Source: Chloroflexota bacterium (GTDB taxonomy: Bacteria > Chloroflexota > Chloroflexia > Chloroflexales > Roseiflexaceae). Taken from it: DNA of 64,000 nucleotides. The notes below the pieces were generated by a model that was not told where the DNA came from, did not search any database, and saw only the letters and a list, made by a program, of their open reading frames with translations. Positions 13,517-60,275 of this stretch are shown here, one piece after another. The stretch spans positions 1-64,000 of the forward strand of contig JAGWYG010000008.1 of assembly GCA_018969485.1 (NCBI GenBank), read 5' to 3'. A program made the position numbers and the translations under genes. The first letter of the stretch is position 1. Every line of letters begins with the position of its first letter.

Positions 13517-14077
13517 ATGCGGTTTCACGAGCACCTGGCGGCGGGCGTACTCCTGGCGCTCGTCCGGCACCGGCACGACCGGACGGCGGCGCTGGCCTGT
13601 GTCGCCGGCGCGGTGCTGCTGGACCTGGATCACTACCTGCTGTATGCCTGGCGCAGCGGTGACTGGAGCCCGCTCGGTGCCTGGCGCTACGACCGGTACC
13701 GGAACCAGCCGCCGCGGGCCGGCGATACCCGGCCGCGGTTCGGCTCGCTGCGCTCGTGGCTGCACCGGCCATGGCTGGCGGTGCCGCTCTGGCTGGCGCT
13801 GGCCGCCGGCGTGCCGCGCGCCCGCCCGTTCGTGGCCGGCATGCTGCTGCACCTGCTGCTCGACACCCACTGGCCGCGGTTCGACCGCACCGCCTGGCGA
13901 CGGGCGGCGGGGCGCTGCGAATACTGTGGCTCGGCGCACTTCGAGCGCGACGTCTGGCGCACTGGCGGCCCGCGCGGTGCCGATCACGCGGTGTGGTGTG
14001 CCGACTGCGCGCGCGTGCTGACGGCACGCCGGCGGCGCGGCGGTGATGGCGGCGCGGCGGCACCAGCCGGCCGCTGA
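13517..14077 (+). CDS. Small membrane protein with DLDH and HLLLD motifs and a C-terminal zinc ribbon
   Basis: 186 residues. Hydrophobic segments contain DLDHYLLY (near residue 36) and HLLLDTHWPR (near 114), resembling the metal-site spacing of membrane-bound YdjM/YbcI-like putative hydrolases (DUF457 type). A cytoplasmic tail carries CEYCG and CADC, two CxxC pairs that look like a zinc ribbon, which the usual family lacks. ATG 13517 follows AGGAG. Function unknown; the family assignment is an inference from motifs only. The gene converges on the TPR membrane gene. Confidence 0.55.
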   Translation: MRFHEHLAAGVLLALVRHRHDRTAALACVAGAVLLDLDHYLLYAWRSGDWSPLGAWRYDRYRNQPPRAGDTRPRFGSLRSWLHRPWLAVPLWLALAAGVPRARPFVAGMLLHLLLDTHWPRFDRTAWRRAAGRCEYCGSAHFERDVWRTGGPRGADHAVWCADCARVLTARRRRGGDGGAAAPAGR

Positions 14078-34050: not shown

Positions 34051-34755
34051 ATGATCGTTCAACTCGACCATCTGGTGATCGCCGTCGCTGATCTGGCGCA
34101 GGCGATGGCCGACTACACCCGCCTCGGCTTCACGGTGGTACCTGGCGGGGAGCATCCCGGCGGCGCGACACACAACGCGCTCGTGGCGTTCGCCGACGGC
34201 ACCTACCTGGAACTGCTGGCGTTCCTGGCGCCCAACCCGGCACACCGCTGGTGGGGGCGCGGCCCGGGCCTGATCGACTTCGCGCTGCTGCCCGACGACA
34301 CCGCTGCGGTGGTCGCGGCGGCGCAGGCGCAGGGCCTGGCGCTGATCGGGCCGAGCACGGGCGGCCGCGTGCGGCCCGACGGCGTGCAGCTGATCTGGCA
34401 GACGGCGCTGGCGCCGATGCCGGGGCTGCCGTTCCTGTGCGGTGATGTGACCTCACGGTCGCTGCGGCTGCCCGATCCGGCCAGTTGGCACCACGCCAAC
34501 GGCGCGCGCGGCATCACGCAGCTCACGGTGGCGGTCGCCGATCTGGCGGTGGCCGCGGCGCACTACCATGCGCTGCTGGGCAGCCCGCCACGCCCGACGG
34601 CGTCTGGCGTCGCGTTCCGGCTGGCGGGCGCGACGATCGCGCTCGCACCCGCCGCCGGCGCGGCCGGGCCGGTGGCGGCCCACATCCGCGCCACGTCGCC
34701 AGGAGCGCTCGACCGGCAGCTGACCCATGGCGCCGCGCTGGAGTTGGTGACATGA
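34051..34755 (+). CDS. Glyoxalase-like (VOC superfamily) protein
   Basis: 234 residues made of two betaalphabetabetabeta modules: LDHLVIAVADLAQAMADYTRLGF at the start and ITQLTVAVADLAVAAAHYHALLG at about 155. The first module matches the glyoxalase-like domain group with GGEHPGGATHNALVAFADGTYLELLAF (His and Glu placed as metal ligands). ATG 34051 follows GGAAGGAG. It may be cotranscribed with the MFS gene 68 bases upstream. Reaction unknown. Confidence 0.82.
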   Translation: MIVQLDHLVIAVADLAQAMADYTRLGFTVVPGGEHPGGATHNALVAFADGTYLELLAFLAPNPAHRWWGRGPGLIDFALLPDDTAAVVAAAQAQGLALIGPSTGGRVRPDGVQLIWQTALAPMPGLPFLCGDVTSRSLRLPDPASWHHANGARGITQLTVAVADLAVAAAHYHALLGSPPRPTASGVAFRLAGATIALAPAAGAAGPVAAHIRATSPGALDRQLTHGAALELVT

Positions 34756-34796
34756 CCGCAGCGGCGCCGGCGTGACGCCGCCAGCATGACCCGCCA

Positions 34797-35795
34797 TCAG
34801 GAAGATGCTTCAGGCAGATCGTGTCCGCCGTGACGGTTACGCGGAAACACACCGAGCGTGCGGTCGTGCGAATGGAACTGGACCCCCGGCGTGATGGCAG
34901 TCCGGTCAATGCCGTGGTACTCGTGGATGATGAGTGTGCCTCCCGAACATCGCACCAGAAACTTCCCGTTGGGAAATACCTCGACGATCTGCCCCCGTGG
35001 TGCCGGACCGATTAATGGGACAGCATCGAATTCAAATATTGCAGCTCGCGTGATTGATACTGCTGTAGTATTGATGTAACTGAACGCGCCATTGAACGGC
35101 GGTGCAACAGCACGAATAAAGCGCTCAATATTATCAATTGGCGCGTCCCAGTCAATCAGACTTGCGTCTGGTGTTCGTTTTGGATAGTATGTTGCACGAT
35201 CTGCAGGTTGTTGTACGAGATTCAGCATTTTTGATTGAAATGCCGTGACATTACGACGTATCAAAGCAATCATCGAAAGCGTATTCTTGAAATGGAGAGT
35301 TTCAGCTGTATCGCTACTATTTATCGTGAAGCATAATGTATCGAGGATGTCACCACTATCTACTCCAGGATCATATCGAAAGAGATTGGTATAGAATACC
35401 TGTCGGCCTTCCAGGAGGGCCCAATTCATCGGTGACCGACCCCGACCAATCGGCAGATTAGCTGCACTGCCATGCATTCCAAACACTCCCAGACTGAATG
35501 TACTCAGGATTGCGTCGGGAATGAGTCGTTGCCAGCCCATGACGAACCCGATATCAAATCGTTGAGCAGCGAAGAATGCCTGGTCGGTACTTGCTTTGAG
35601 ATCGTAGCGGGCTGCTGAATACACCGGGACGCGATGCGCTTCGGCCCATTCACGAATATCACAGTAGTCGGCGACGTCTGCTCGCTGACCTCTGACTGGA
35701 TCGATGGTTACGAGTGCGCTTATACCAATAATATCAAGCAAATGCCTAGAAAGTAGCAGTGTTGTAGATTTACACCCAAATACACATATATTCAT
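34797..35795 (-). CDS. Formyltransferase-family protein, probable sugar N-formyltransferase
   Basis: 332 residues: a formyltransferase N-terminal domain (1-200) and a C-terminal Fmt-like domain (about 210-310, IDWDAPIDNIERFIRAV). The catalytic His108 (GMHGS) and Asp149 (DSGDI) are present, but the usual Asn two residues before the His is Gly106. The loop PIGRGRSPMNWAL is like sugar-nucleotide formyltransferases rather than tRNA formyltransferase. The gene is AT-rich (a sampled 60-base line is about 35% G+C) unlike its neighbours. GAGGT lies 5 bases before the ATG; the deacetylase-like gene is 24 bases upstream in the same operon. Confidence 0.75.
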   Translation of the reverse strand: MNICVFGCKSTTLLLSRHLLDIIGISALVTIDPVRGQRADVADYCDIREWAEAHRVPVYSAARYDLKASTDQAFFAAQRFDIGFVMGWQRLIPDAILSTFSLGVFGMHGSAANLPIGRGRSPMNWALLEGRQVFYTNLFRYDPGVDSGDILDTLCFTINSSDTAETLHFKNTLSMIALIRRNVTAFQSKMLNLVQQPADRATYYPKRTPDASLIDWDAPIDNIERFIRAVAPPFNGAFSYINTTAVSITRAAIFEFDAVPLIGPAPRGQIVEVFPNGKFLVRCSGGTLIIHEYHGIDRTAITPGVQFHSHDRTLGVFPRNRHGGHDLPEASS

Positions 35796-35819
35796 ATGTT
35801 ACCTCTATCAATTGATGAT

Positions 35820-36551
35820 TTATGCCTTTTGATAAGAAAAATGTATGGAAAGGTGTGCTTCATAAGATTTACAGTTATCTTCGATGTGATAAAGCATACG
35901 ATGAATTCGATCAAAGACGTATCCATCCAGCTGCGACTGTGGGTCATTCTCTGGACGAATCCACCAGATAGGGTGGATTAACATATGAATAGTTTGTTGT
36001 TCAGCAAAAGCTTTGCTTTGCCGTGGATCACCGAATCGCCATCCACCACGTGAATCTGAGCAATAAAATACATCTTTGACGAATTTTTGCTGATATGTGT
36101 GCGATATTCCATGTATATCATCATTATGCGAAAGAAAATAATCATTTGGATGATGAATACTGATAATATCGACATTATATCCCAGAAATTGCTGAAACAT
36201 TGCAACTTCATGCAACAGACCCTCATGAAATGAGGTATAGACCATTGGGTCAAAATGCAAACTAATCTTATGGCCAAGCTGCGCGATTTCACGCACGCGC
36301 TTGATATTTCCGGCAGACAGCAGCGTGTACGAATCGCTTGTCAGCATGAAAAAATAGGTTGAAACTACACCGAGACTAGCCTCGATTTTAGCCATCTGTA
36401 ACGCGTATTCTACATCAAAATCAATATCGTGCCGTAGAAACAGAACGTTGTTAGGTGGAAGTGCACCAGAGTGCATCACTCGACATGTATATCCGGCATT
36501 GAGAAATTCTTGAACAAACTCTGCATAGTCAGGAAAATTAGCCACGAACAT
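35820..36551 (-). CDS. Polysaccharide-deacetylase-like protein
   Basis: 243 residues. LFLRHDIDFDVEYAL (His41, Asp42, Asp44) and STYFFMLTSDSYTLLSAGN then LGHKISLHFD are the signature of deacetylase-like proteins seen in O-antigen and surface-sugar loci. It probably removes an acyl group from a sugar on a nucleotide or glycan; with the formyltransferase it would allow an acetamido to formamido exchange. AT-rich like its partner. ATG 36551 follows CGAGG; a GTG one codon earlier is also possible. Both genes seem to have arrived together. Confidence 0.75.
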   Translation of the reverse strand: MFVANFPDYAEFVQEFLNAGYTCRVMHSGALPPNNVLFLRHDIDFDVEYALQMAKIEASLGVVSTYFFMLTSDSYTLLSAGNIKRVREIAQLGHKISLHFDPMVYTSFHEGLLHEVAMFQQFLGYNVDIISIHHPNDYFLSHNDDIHGISHTYQQKFVKDVFYCSDSRGGWRFGDPRQSKAFAEQQTIHMLIHPIWWIRPENDPQSQLDGYVFDRIHRMLYHIEDNCKSYEAHLSIHFSYQKA

Positions 36552-37081
36552 CACCTCGATTACTCATATTGCACTATCCAGCATCAAGACGACCATGTAG
36601 CAGTATCAGGCACACCCACAGACTCATATACCAGACGTGACACGCGTACCACGGTGCAGTATCGCTTGCGAGCCATCCCGTAGCACAGAACGCCACGCAC
36701 TTCGACGTGCACGACCATCGCGAAAGCGCTGGTTCGCGAGGCAGCGCGACCCTGGCGAACAAACTCCATTCCGCGCACGGCGCCGCCACTATAGCAGAGA
36801 GTGGTCAAAACTTCAACCGCTCGGGAACAGGCGCGCCGGCACAGCGGCGTGCCCGAAATCCTTTGCTCCGTTGTGTGCTGCCCCCGAGACCAGCAGCCAC
36901 AGGAGCATGGCTAGACAGCCGTGTGATCGAACGCATGTGCCATGCCAGCCACCAACGCAGTCGCCGCACGCGTCGTGACACGGCGATGTCCCCAAGAGGC
37001 GTCACCATCCGGTACGCCCGGGCGCGCGATGGGCTATAATCAGCGTGCGGATGGCACCCCATACGAGCGGGAAGGTAGCGC
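36552..37081. other. 530-bp gap with one promoter and no supported gene
   Basis: Base composition returns from AT-rich to GC-rich across this stretch. Besides the minus-strand promoter at 36788-36816 and a TATAAT at 37035-37040 (42 bases before the next GTG), I see no coding, tRNA or transposase remnant. Long untranslated leader for the deacetylase-like gene (about 230 bases). Confidence 0.5.
36788..36816 (-). promoter_or_regulatory. Promoter of the AT-rich island operon
   Basis: On the minus strand, TTGAAG (36816-36811), 17-base spacer, TATAGT (36793-36788). It points at the deacetylase-like and formyltransferase genes. Confidence 0.5.
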
Positions 37082-37708
37082 GTGATCATCGCACTGGTCG
37101 GCATGTCGGGCGTCGGCAAGAGCACCTGGGCGGCGCGGTTTCACGCGGCCGGCTACCGGCACGTCGATTGTGACGCATTGATCGCCGGCGAGCTGGCGCG
37201 GCAGTACCAGCAGTCGTTCGCCGACCTGAACGCCATCGGCGGCTGGATGGGCATGCCCGACGCGCCGCAGTTCGCCGCACGCGAACGCGCCTACCTCGCC
37301 GCCGAGGCGCATGTCCTCGCGGCGGCGCTCGACGCGCTGGATCACCAGCCGACCGTGATCGACTGCACGGGCAGCGTCGTGTATCTGCCGGACGCCCTGC
37401 TTCACAGCCTGCGGCAGCGTGCCGCCATCGTCTATCTCGCCGAAGGTGCGGCATCGGCGCAGCAGCGCATCGCCGGCTACCTGGCGGCGCCGCGGCCGAT
37501 CGTCTGGGCCGGCGCCTACCAGCCCCAGCCCGGCGAGACGCGCGACCAGTCCATTGCGCGGTGTTTTGCCGAACTGGTGGCCTGGCGCGTGACGCGCTAC
37601 CGGGTGCTGTGCCATCACACCATCGACGAGACGCTGCACCGCGATCCCGCGTGCGGTGTCGCGGGCCTGCTGCGGCAACTCGACGGTGCACCAGGGGGGC
37701 ACTCATGA
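37082..37708 (+). CDS. P-loop NTPase, shikimate-kinase-like
   Basis: 208 residues. Walker A GMSGVGKST (7-15), then DCDALI as in shikimate/gluconate-type kinases, and a C-terminal helical lid region. It lacks the shikimate-specific Arg motif that I could recognise, so the substrate is open. GTG 37082 has GGGAAGG upstream. Its stop overlaps the next ATG (ATGA), placing it in an operon with a glycosyltransferase and a GH57-type enzyme, which suggests phosphorylation of a sugar or related small molecule. Confidence 0.7.
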   Translation: MIIALVGMSGVGKSTWAARFHAAGYRHVDCDALIAGELARQYQQSFADLNAIGGWMGMPDAPQFAARERAYLAAEAHVLAAALDALDHQPTVIDCTGSVVYLPDALLHSLRQRAAIVYLAEGAASAQQRIAGYLAAPRPIVWAGAYQPQPGETRDQSIARCFAELVAWRVTRYRVLCHHTIDETLHRDPACGVAGLLRQLDGAPGGHS

Positions 37709-38463
37709 GCAGCCGCCCGATCCGCCGCCTGGCATCGATCCGCATCTTCGGCGTCCGCATCGACGACGTCGTCGAGGACGAGGTGTTCGCCTGGATCGAT
37801 GACATCATCCGGCGCCGCGAGGTGCGGCGCATCGCCACGGTGAACCCCGAATTCCTGATGGAAGCGCGCGACGATCCGACATTTGCCGCGGTGCTGAACG
37901 CCGCCGACATCGCCACCGCGGACGGCGCCGGCGTCCTGTGGGCGGCACAGCGGCTGGGGCGCCGCCTGCGCGGCCGGGTCACCGGATCCGACCTGACGCT
38001 GCGCATCATCCGCGAGGCGGCGGCGCGGCCCTGGCGGCTGTTTCTGCTGGGCGCCGCGCCCGGCGTGGCCGAGCGCGTGGCCGCGACGGCGGTGAGCCGC
38101 CATCCCGGCGTGGCGATCGTCGGCTGTCATGCCGGTGATCCGGCACCCGAACACGACGATGTGCTGGTCGCGCGCGTGCGCGCGGCACGGCCCGACATCC
38201 TGCTGGTCGCCTACCCGTTCCGCGCCCAGGAGCGCTGGATCGCACGTAACCTGGCGCGGCTGCAGGTGCCGGTCACCATCGGCGTCGGTGGTGCCTTCGA
38301 CTTCATCGCCGGCGTCGTGCCGCGCGCGCCGGCGTGGATGCGGCGCCTGGGCCTCGAGTGGATGTATCGCCTGCTGCAACAACCCTGGCGCTGGCGGCGC
38401 ATCGTGCGCGCGGTGCCGGCGTTCATCATCGCGGTGCTGCGCGCCGCGGCGAGGCCGGCGTGA
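37705..38463 (+). CDS. WecG/TagA/CpsF family glycosyltransferase
   Basis: 252 residues, the family length. Landmarks: TVNPEFLMEARDD near residue 47, ATADGAGVLWAAQRLGRRLRGRVTGSDL, LFLLGAAPGV, and the C-terminal VGGAFDFIAGVVPRAPAWMRRLGLEWMYRL. These enzymes add N-acetylmannosamine-type sugars to lipid-linked intermediates of teichoic acids, enterobacterial common antigen or capsules, at the inner membrane face. Coupled on both sides by stop-start overlaps (ATGA upstream, GTGA downstream). Confidence 0.92.
   Translation: MSSRPIRRLASIRIFGVRIDDVVEDEVFAWIDDIIRRREVRRIATVNPEFLMEARDDPTFAAVLNAADIATADGAGVLWAAQRLGRRLRGRVTGSDLTLRIIREAAARPWRLFLLGAAPGVAERVAATAVSRHPGVAIVGCHAGDPAPEHDDVLVARVRAARPDILLVAYPFRAQERWIARNLARLQVPVTIGVGGAFDFIAGVVPRAPAWMRRLGLEWMYRLLQQPWRWRRIVRAVPAFIIAVLRAAARPA

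Positions 38464-58605: not shown

Positions 58606-60275
<1,670 letters not shown>

Follow-up and report, generated by a model that had tools for sequence, protein, structure and literature searches.

The window, by which we mean the whole stretch of 64,000 nucleotides analyzed here, has a mean GC content of 0.698 and contains, between a glyoxalase-like and a kinase-like gene, an AT-rich island with two genes on the minus strand, which we call FT and DA. The features of the locus are the following.

34051..34755, plus strand: glyoxalase-like protein (PF13468), ancestral left flank, whose orthologue adjoins the empty site in G001, a genome of the same genus.
34750..37021, no strand: inserted stretch of ~2.27 kb (2272 bp), in place of which G001 has ~103 bp (blastn and alignment with its locus, L151).
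34797..35795, minus strand: FT, formyltransferase-fold protein of 332 amino acids with Formyl_trans_N and Formyl_trans_C domains and G106-x-H108 instead of N-x-H (Pfam, structure, motif).
35820..36554, minus strand: DA, putative CE4/NodB-like deacetylase of 244 amino acids counted from a GTG start (predicted fold, invariant residues).
36555..37021, no strand: 467 bp upstream of DA with no recognized gene and ~62% GC, single copy in the genome and absent from the empty site of the sister genome.
37082..37708, plus strand: small P-loop kinase-like protein (PF13671), ancestral right flank, 82% identical to its G001 orthologue at the empty site.
37702..38463, plus strand: glycosyltransferase of the WecG/TagA/CpsF family (PF03808, 199 bits), ancestral neighbor outside the island, present in G001.

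The first-pass annotation had described a two-gene island at this place, and both minus-strand open reading frames are indeed present, separated by 24 bp. The end that it gave, 36551, is an ATG start of DA, one of three candidates together with the GTG codons at 36554 and 36545. The island was said to be much richer in A+T than its surroundings, which is what we found when GC content and codon usage were computed gene by gene: FT has 49.7% GC (GC3, 0.46) and DA 40.4% (GC3, 0.36), while the seven flanking genes range from 67.8 to 74.2% (GC3, 0.86 to 0.91). The value of ~35% G+C quoted at the time applies to some stretches and not to the genes as wholes. In 1-kb windows the island lies between 0.428 and 0.499, and the lowest 1-kb window clear of it reaches 0.640. 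Measured against the codon usage of the flanking genes, FT and DA are a far poorer fit, with mean log synonymous frequencies of -1.72 and -1.70, than the seven flankers, with -0.72 to -0.85. A promoter of its own, also ascribed to the island, could not be substantiated, as 4 promoter-like sites compare with 3.1 +/- 1.3 in shuffled sequences and the nearest one upstream is ~230 bp from DA. Signals for an island terminator were likewise not above shuffles.

Homology between the window and the G001 locus (blastn and alignment with L151) ends at 34749 and picks up again at 37022. G001 is the only other genome of the genus searched, and its locus, on contig C548, has the same gene order (FAD protein, hydrolase, MFS transporter, glyoxalase, kinase, WecG, GH57, M50 peptidase-like, and methyltransferase-like genes), with 82 to 94% protein identity. 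Because this same-genus genome has the same locus with ~103 bp instead of ~2.27 kb, the island is, as far as sequence comparison tells, an insertion in the assembly as given, a draft MAG (4.02 Mb; 247 contigs; completeness, 95.6%; contamination, 4.9%). We identified no direct or inverted repeat at the ends of the island beyond short chance-like matches, no tRNA near it, no recombinase inside it, and no second copy of the 467-bp stretch elsewhere in the genome. Farther away in the window, ARAGORN predicted a tRNA-Gln of 93 bp (13758-13850) and a tRNA-Asp, also of 93 bp, with anticodon atc (58750-58842); both are odd and may be false. The earlier view that no other sugar-nucleotide genes accompany the pair needs a qualification: genes for the WecG/TagA glycosyltransferase and for a GH57 protein stand no more than 3.3 kb away, but both are also present in G001, which lacks the island, so they are not part of it. 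The proximity of the WecG/TagA glycosyltransferase is no more than a hint that N-acetylated sugars are handled by the host.

DA was found in none of the 59 other genomes searched from genus to order, and in the same genomes FT had only matches at the level of Fmt (best, 28% identity; E, 6.9e-14). Among 400 Chloroflexota genomes, which are a sample of a larger group, 18 have DA-like genes, the window's included, and of the matches spanning most of DA, the best other Chloroflexota one has 34% identity. A profile of the FT clade (A6) retrieves the window FT with an E of 4.4e-133 and the next Chloroflexota gene with an E of 3.8e-50. In a tree of 86 relatives, the window DA pairs with a protein of Brevundimonas denitrificans (60% identity; support, 100/99) inside a clade of eight rows (100/98) that also holds proteins of Lewinella, Flavobacteriaceae, Lentisphaerae, Hyphomicrobiales, and Pelagibacteraceae, and the proteins of Thermogemmatispora, Ktedonobacteraceae, and Dictyobacter fall in a separate clade. 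In the tree of 52 FTs, the window FT groups with proteins of Hyphomicrobiales, Pelagibacteraceae, and Lentisphaerae (47 to 53% identity). The clades of both window genes have no Chloroflexota rows, and neither gene is placed firmly with Chloroflexota homologues of similar composition. The foreign origin proposed earlier is borne out by the empty site, the 0/59 count for DA, and both trees, and the nearest relatives of both proteins lie outside the Chloroflexota. A single donor lineage for the two genes was considered and rejected: DA leads to Brevundimonas, FT leads to Hyphomicrobiales, Pelagibacteraceae, or Lentisphaerae, and none fits both. In the genome of B. denitrificans, which codes for the best DA relative, we found no G-x-H FT, and this counts against reading the two genes as a pair. 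The B. denitrificans gene (L133:6001-6705) adjoins one for a UDP-sugar dehydrogenase.

FT matches PF00551 with 35.0 bits (cutoff, 26.1) and PF02911 with 41.0 bits (cutoff, 21.1), and its predicted model (pLDDT, 90.8) fits best on the formyltransferase domain of ArnA (Z, 29.2; rmsd, 3.0; 290 residues; 29% identity), with Fmt about equal (Z, 28.7). With this N-terminal domain of ArnA, a UDP-Ara4N formyltransferase, FT shares the fold over nearly its full length and the active-site His and Asp. However, where the center of ArnA reads Asn-Leu-His in the alignment, the window FT has Gly106-Met-His108, so that it lacks the canonical active-site Asn (Asn102 in ArnA, which we take to be the Asn normally used by formyltransferases), and it also differs in having two extra residues between HGS and LP, as well as a GWQR motif. 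His108 and Asp146 are invariant and Ser110 is conserved in A6. WlaRD, QdtF, FdtF, VioF, WbkC, and Rv3404c, N-formyltransferases of O-antigen sugars, share the Formyl_trans_N fold with a lower match (Z, 17.5 to 22.7), and an N-formyl sugar would be the product that they have in common with FT.

The position of the Asn is occupied by Asn in 22 of the 44 FTs gathered, by Gly in 18, and by Gln in 3, and is not covered in 1. All 16 members of the window's group (the window, 14 paired loci, and one phage) share the Gly, the Gln of GWQR, and the insertion of two residues that separates HGS from LP; this insertion is found in none of the 27 FTs outside the group, 2 of which do have Gly. An invariant Gln (Q89) marks the G-x-H clade, and the Gly recurs in all nine viral members and in every member from Halobacteria and Alphaproteobacteria found by starting from FT. 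In the tree of 52 rows, the 25 members of the G-x-H group make up one side of a branch with support of 100/99. By alignment and tree, FT is a member of a distinct clade of formyltransferase-fold proteins with Gly for the usual catalytic Asn. As this holds for every clade member seen, formyl transfer would need a modified mechanism, or some other group would be moved.

DA matched nothing in Pfam, NCBIfam, or PHROG; neither Polysacc_deac_1 (PF01522) nor the WbmS-like family PF22537 matched it at E values of up to 0.5, and searches by sequence against the PDB gave only chance-level matches. Four of its 53 relatives match Polysacc_deac_1 at E values of up to 0.01. The AF2 model (pLDDT, 92.7) has CE4 deacetylases as top Foldseek matches (E down to 4.5e-06), with VIA Z scores of 12.1 for IcaB and PplD, 10.2 for WbmS of Bordetella (PDB 3hft), a protein with an O-antigen context, and 9.7 for ArnD (8t0j). 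The residues H42-D43-x-D45, H100, H134, and H194 are invariant across the 53 rows of DA relatives and match the CE4 active site, where they would have metal-binding and catalytic roles, as the two Asp of motif 1, the His ligands, and the late His. Judged by its predicted fold, DA is a divergent, Pfam-less deacetylase of the CE4 type that has kept the active-site residues. No long hydrophobic segment was found in FT or in DA.

Loci of the DA family were gathered by one conserved peptide pattern. Among the best 80 of 83, a G-x-H FT with 33 to 52% identity directly adjoins DA at 14 loci (from Lewinella, Lentisphaerae, Hyphomicrobiales, Micavibrio, Pelagibacteraceae, Armatimonadota, and eight haloarchaea), and another kind of FT stands next door at 3 further loci. 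The 66 of these best 80 of 83 that have no adjoining G-x-H FT count against the pair reading. Other neighbors scanned include asparagine-synthase-like proteins, a carbamoyltransferase, hexapeptide acyltransferases, WbqC, and a DegT aminotransferase, a range that would fit a general role in the modification of sugars. DUF7033 proteins (PF23019) were seen near DA relatives in two unrelated genomes (L062:9093-10487 and L073:4491-5891).

The search that starts from FT is a fairer test of the pairing than the one that starts from DA. A de-N-acetylase adjoins FT in all nine viral contigs found by the FT profile, seven times from the DA family, once WbmS-like (L173; E, 8e-26), and once of the PIG-L family, downstream (L165; E, 1.9e-17). 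The seven viral DA genes lie directly upstream of FT, mostly with overlapping ends. Scanning viral contigs with a single DA or FT protein had returned nothing, and it was the alignment-based searches that found these members. In the 634-kb phage LR745206, the end of a Polysacc_deac_1 gene overlaps the start of FT by one base, and because its product has no significant relation to the DA profile, this partner was counted as a different CE4 family. Besides LR745206, 22 other phage records have an FT-like match, and the phage count covers LR745206 alone. Among the 247 genomes of Halobacteria searched, 13 code for an FT, always next to DA (13/13), and the three FTs in 385 genomes of Alphaproteobacteria are partnered by DA in one case, by Polysacc_deac_1 in another, and by no deacetylase in the last (L201/L215), a locus that counts against the pair reading. 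This unpaired G-x-H FT (L215:3907-4935) adjoins an aldo/keto reductase gene.

Altogether, 25 of 26 G-x-H loci found from the FT side are paired with a de-N-acetylase, in searches whose A6 alignment includes loci found through DA; the figure is 20 of 21 after excluding seeds and near-copies (L194, L196, L202, L205, and L207; the DA of L202 is 99.5% identical to that of the seed L118). The 21 are the nine viral contigs, the huge phage (which is in A6 but was originally found by FT alone), nine loci of Halobacteria, and two of Alphaproteobacteria. The control, run with the same blast queries as the set from Halobacteria and Alphaproteobacteria, took in 41 loci of other formyltransferases, which are 35 distinct genes once six returned by both searches are removed, and a deacetylase match was found near one of these 35. 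The partners come from four de-N-acetylase families, and this swapping, which extends to PIG-L, is our strongest argument that deacetylation would be the partner step that is needed, ahead of formylation. As judged from these sequences, the partnership extends beyond the island, which is one copy of it, and has relatives in unrelated bacteria, haloarchaea, and viruses.

The copies differ in their settings. Those of the viral contigs, of the huge phage, and of several bacteria stand amid glycosyltransferases, epimerases, and sugar dehydratases, some copies adjoin glycosyltransferases and a sugar-phosphate transferase, and DA relatives are found in polysaccharide clusters. In the viral contigs L168 to L171, the next gene after the overlapping DA-FT pair codes for a protein of ~453 amino acids with a methyltransferase-like C-terminal part (by Pfam in L168 only). 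Outside glycan clusters we found the window copy, that of a Pelagibacteraceae genome (L070), between GMP synthase and photolyase genes, and the cassette of G466, between genes for a response regulator and a Mg-chelatase-like protein. Five Natrialbaceae loci, which likewise stand alone, have a tyrosine recombinase 1.5 to 3.5 kb away. Since some cassettes stand outside glycan clusters, the pair can travel without its own sugar-nucleotide genes, and the idea that the island is an add-on lacking such genes fits these other copies, which also stand alone.

We consider it likely that the island was acquired horizontally as a cassette of two genes whose products swap one N-acyl group on a sugar by de-N-acetylation followed by N-formylation. 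In such an exchange, DA would act as a cytosolic, metal-dependent deacetylase of the CE4 type on an N-acetyl amino sugar, carried either by a nucleotide or by a lipid-linked glycan that faces the cytosol, and FT would formylate the amine so exposed, with 10-formyl-tetrahydrofolate as the probable donor. Resident enzymes could then build the altered sugar into a glycan of the host surface, which would look different to phages or to glycan-recognizing proteins. The substrate, the formyl donor, the order of the steps, and the biological benefit are parts that we infer. The first-pass annotation had arrived at the same acetyl-to-formyl logic, which gains support from the recurrent pairing of the FT clade with de-N-acetylases and from the predicted folds; taken as a whole its interpretation is partly supported, the observation being confirmed and the reading largely right but incomplete. 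From the letters alone it had no view of the Asn-to-Gly change in the active site or of the occurrence of the pair in other phyla, in archaea, and in viruses. More tentatively, the pair may be a mobile and self-contained acetyl-to-formyl cassette with bacteria, haloarchaea, and large viruses as its carriers, built on an FT clade whose active site, with Gly for Asn, would be new, and with a deacetylase that has several times given way to unrelated or distantly related de-N-acetylases. Its role might be to hide the N-acetyl sugars of host surfaces or virions from phages and glycan-recognizing proteins.

The reverse order of events, in which FT would formylate an amino sugar and DA would deformylate it later, as ArnA and ArnD do, leaving a free amine and a more positive surface, is the chief alternative and, judged by sequence, seems unlikely to us. 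The FT fold is closest to that of ArnA, and DA has the deformylase ArnD among its CE4 matches (8t0j; Z, 9.7), but ArnD ranks below many N-deacetylases, and the L165 partner belongs to PIG-L, described as a GlcNAc-PI de-N-acetylase family. Such transient formylation is also hard to match with an island that has no aminotransferase to supply the amino sugar, and with the 66 of the best 80 of 83 DA relatives that have no adjoining G-x-H FT and often stand beside other sugar-modifying enzymes. Slightly more doubtful is that FT has given up formyl transfer, either moving another one-carbon or acyl group or serving as a binding partner of the deacetylase. In its favor, every clade member seen has Gly where the Asn would be, and the invariant Q89 and the two-residue insertion after HGS mark the clade. 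Against it, neither His108 nor Asp146 varies, A6 retains Ser110, and two FTs outside the clade also have Gly at this position. In addition, HypX, which according to the accessible part of PMC6802093 is proposed to transfer formyl while lacking one residue of the triad, makes formyl transfer by FT plausible by analogy.

That the pair targets something other than a glycan (a cofactor, a small thiol, or a natural product) is less probable again. Glycan genes do not adjoin it at L070, at the Natrialbaceae loci, in G466, or in the window, whereas the viral and several bacterial copies lie amid glycosyltransferases, epimerases, and sugar dehydratases, and DA relatives occur in polysaccharide clusters. 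Finally, that the genes are native to this lineage, with a GC content that fell by drift, and disappeared from the sister genome is highly improbable and already contradicted: other Chloroflexota do have Fmt-like and DA-like genes, but DA is absent from the 59 other genomes searched from genus to order, the same genus has an empty site, the trees give clades without Chloroflexota rows, and codon usage is foreign.

The preferred exchange of acetyl for formyl departs from known systems in where the amine comes from. To our knowledge, the sugar N-formyltransferases studied so far act on amines made by aminotransferases and not by deacetylation, and FT likewise differs from ArnA in being partnered with a de-N-acetylase and not with an aminotransferase pathway. 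Removal of an N-acetyl group and addition of another group to the freed amine is known from LpxC and LpxD, from TunE and TunC, and from NDST, all of them of other families and adding groups other than formyl, and 2-formamido sugars occur in some O-antigens. If true, the pairing would lead directly from common N-acetyl sugars to N-formyl sugars, and it would supply candidate genes for these 2-formamido sugars. The G-x-H clade, without a residue held to be catalytic, would be a testbed for formyl transfer without Asn, and the viral copies beside sugar genes would link the acyl swap to host-virus surface chemistry. We find this wider pattern of an unusual active site, partner swapping, and viral presence more interesting than the single island.

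Our search of the open-access literature on formyl and deacetylase or O-antigen topics, with subscription papers mostly outside its scope, found no description of such a pair, which is weak evidence that the partnership of the G-x-H FT clade with de-N-acetylases is undescribed in that literature. In their accessible parts, PMC3849452 discusses horizontal transfer within the Bordetella wbm locus and PMC12243275 names predicted formyltransferase genes in a figure legend, with no text on a deacetylase-formyltransferase pair in these parts of either paper. The available portion of PMC11431627 reports that a haloarchaeal plasmid acquired a formyltransferase gene, and that of PMC10924466 treats WbtJ. 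Beyond the G-x-H clade, FTs also stand beside DA relatives at L114 and L120 (both N-x-H) and at L104 (motif not covered), and in another Chloroflexota genome, G276 (L034/L177), an N-x-H FT adjoins a WbmS-like deacetylase match, the same partnership with an FT of another clade.
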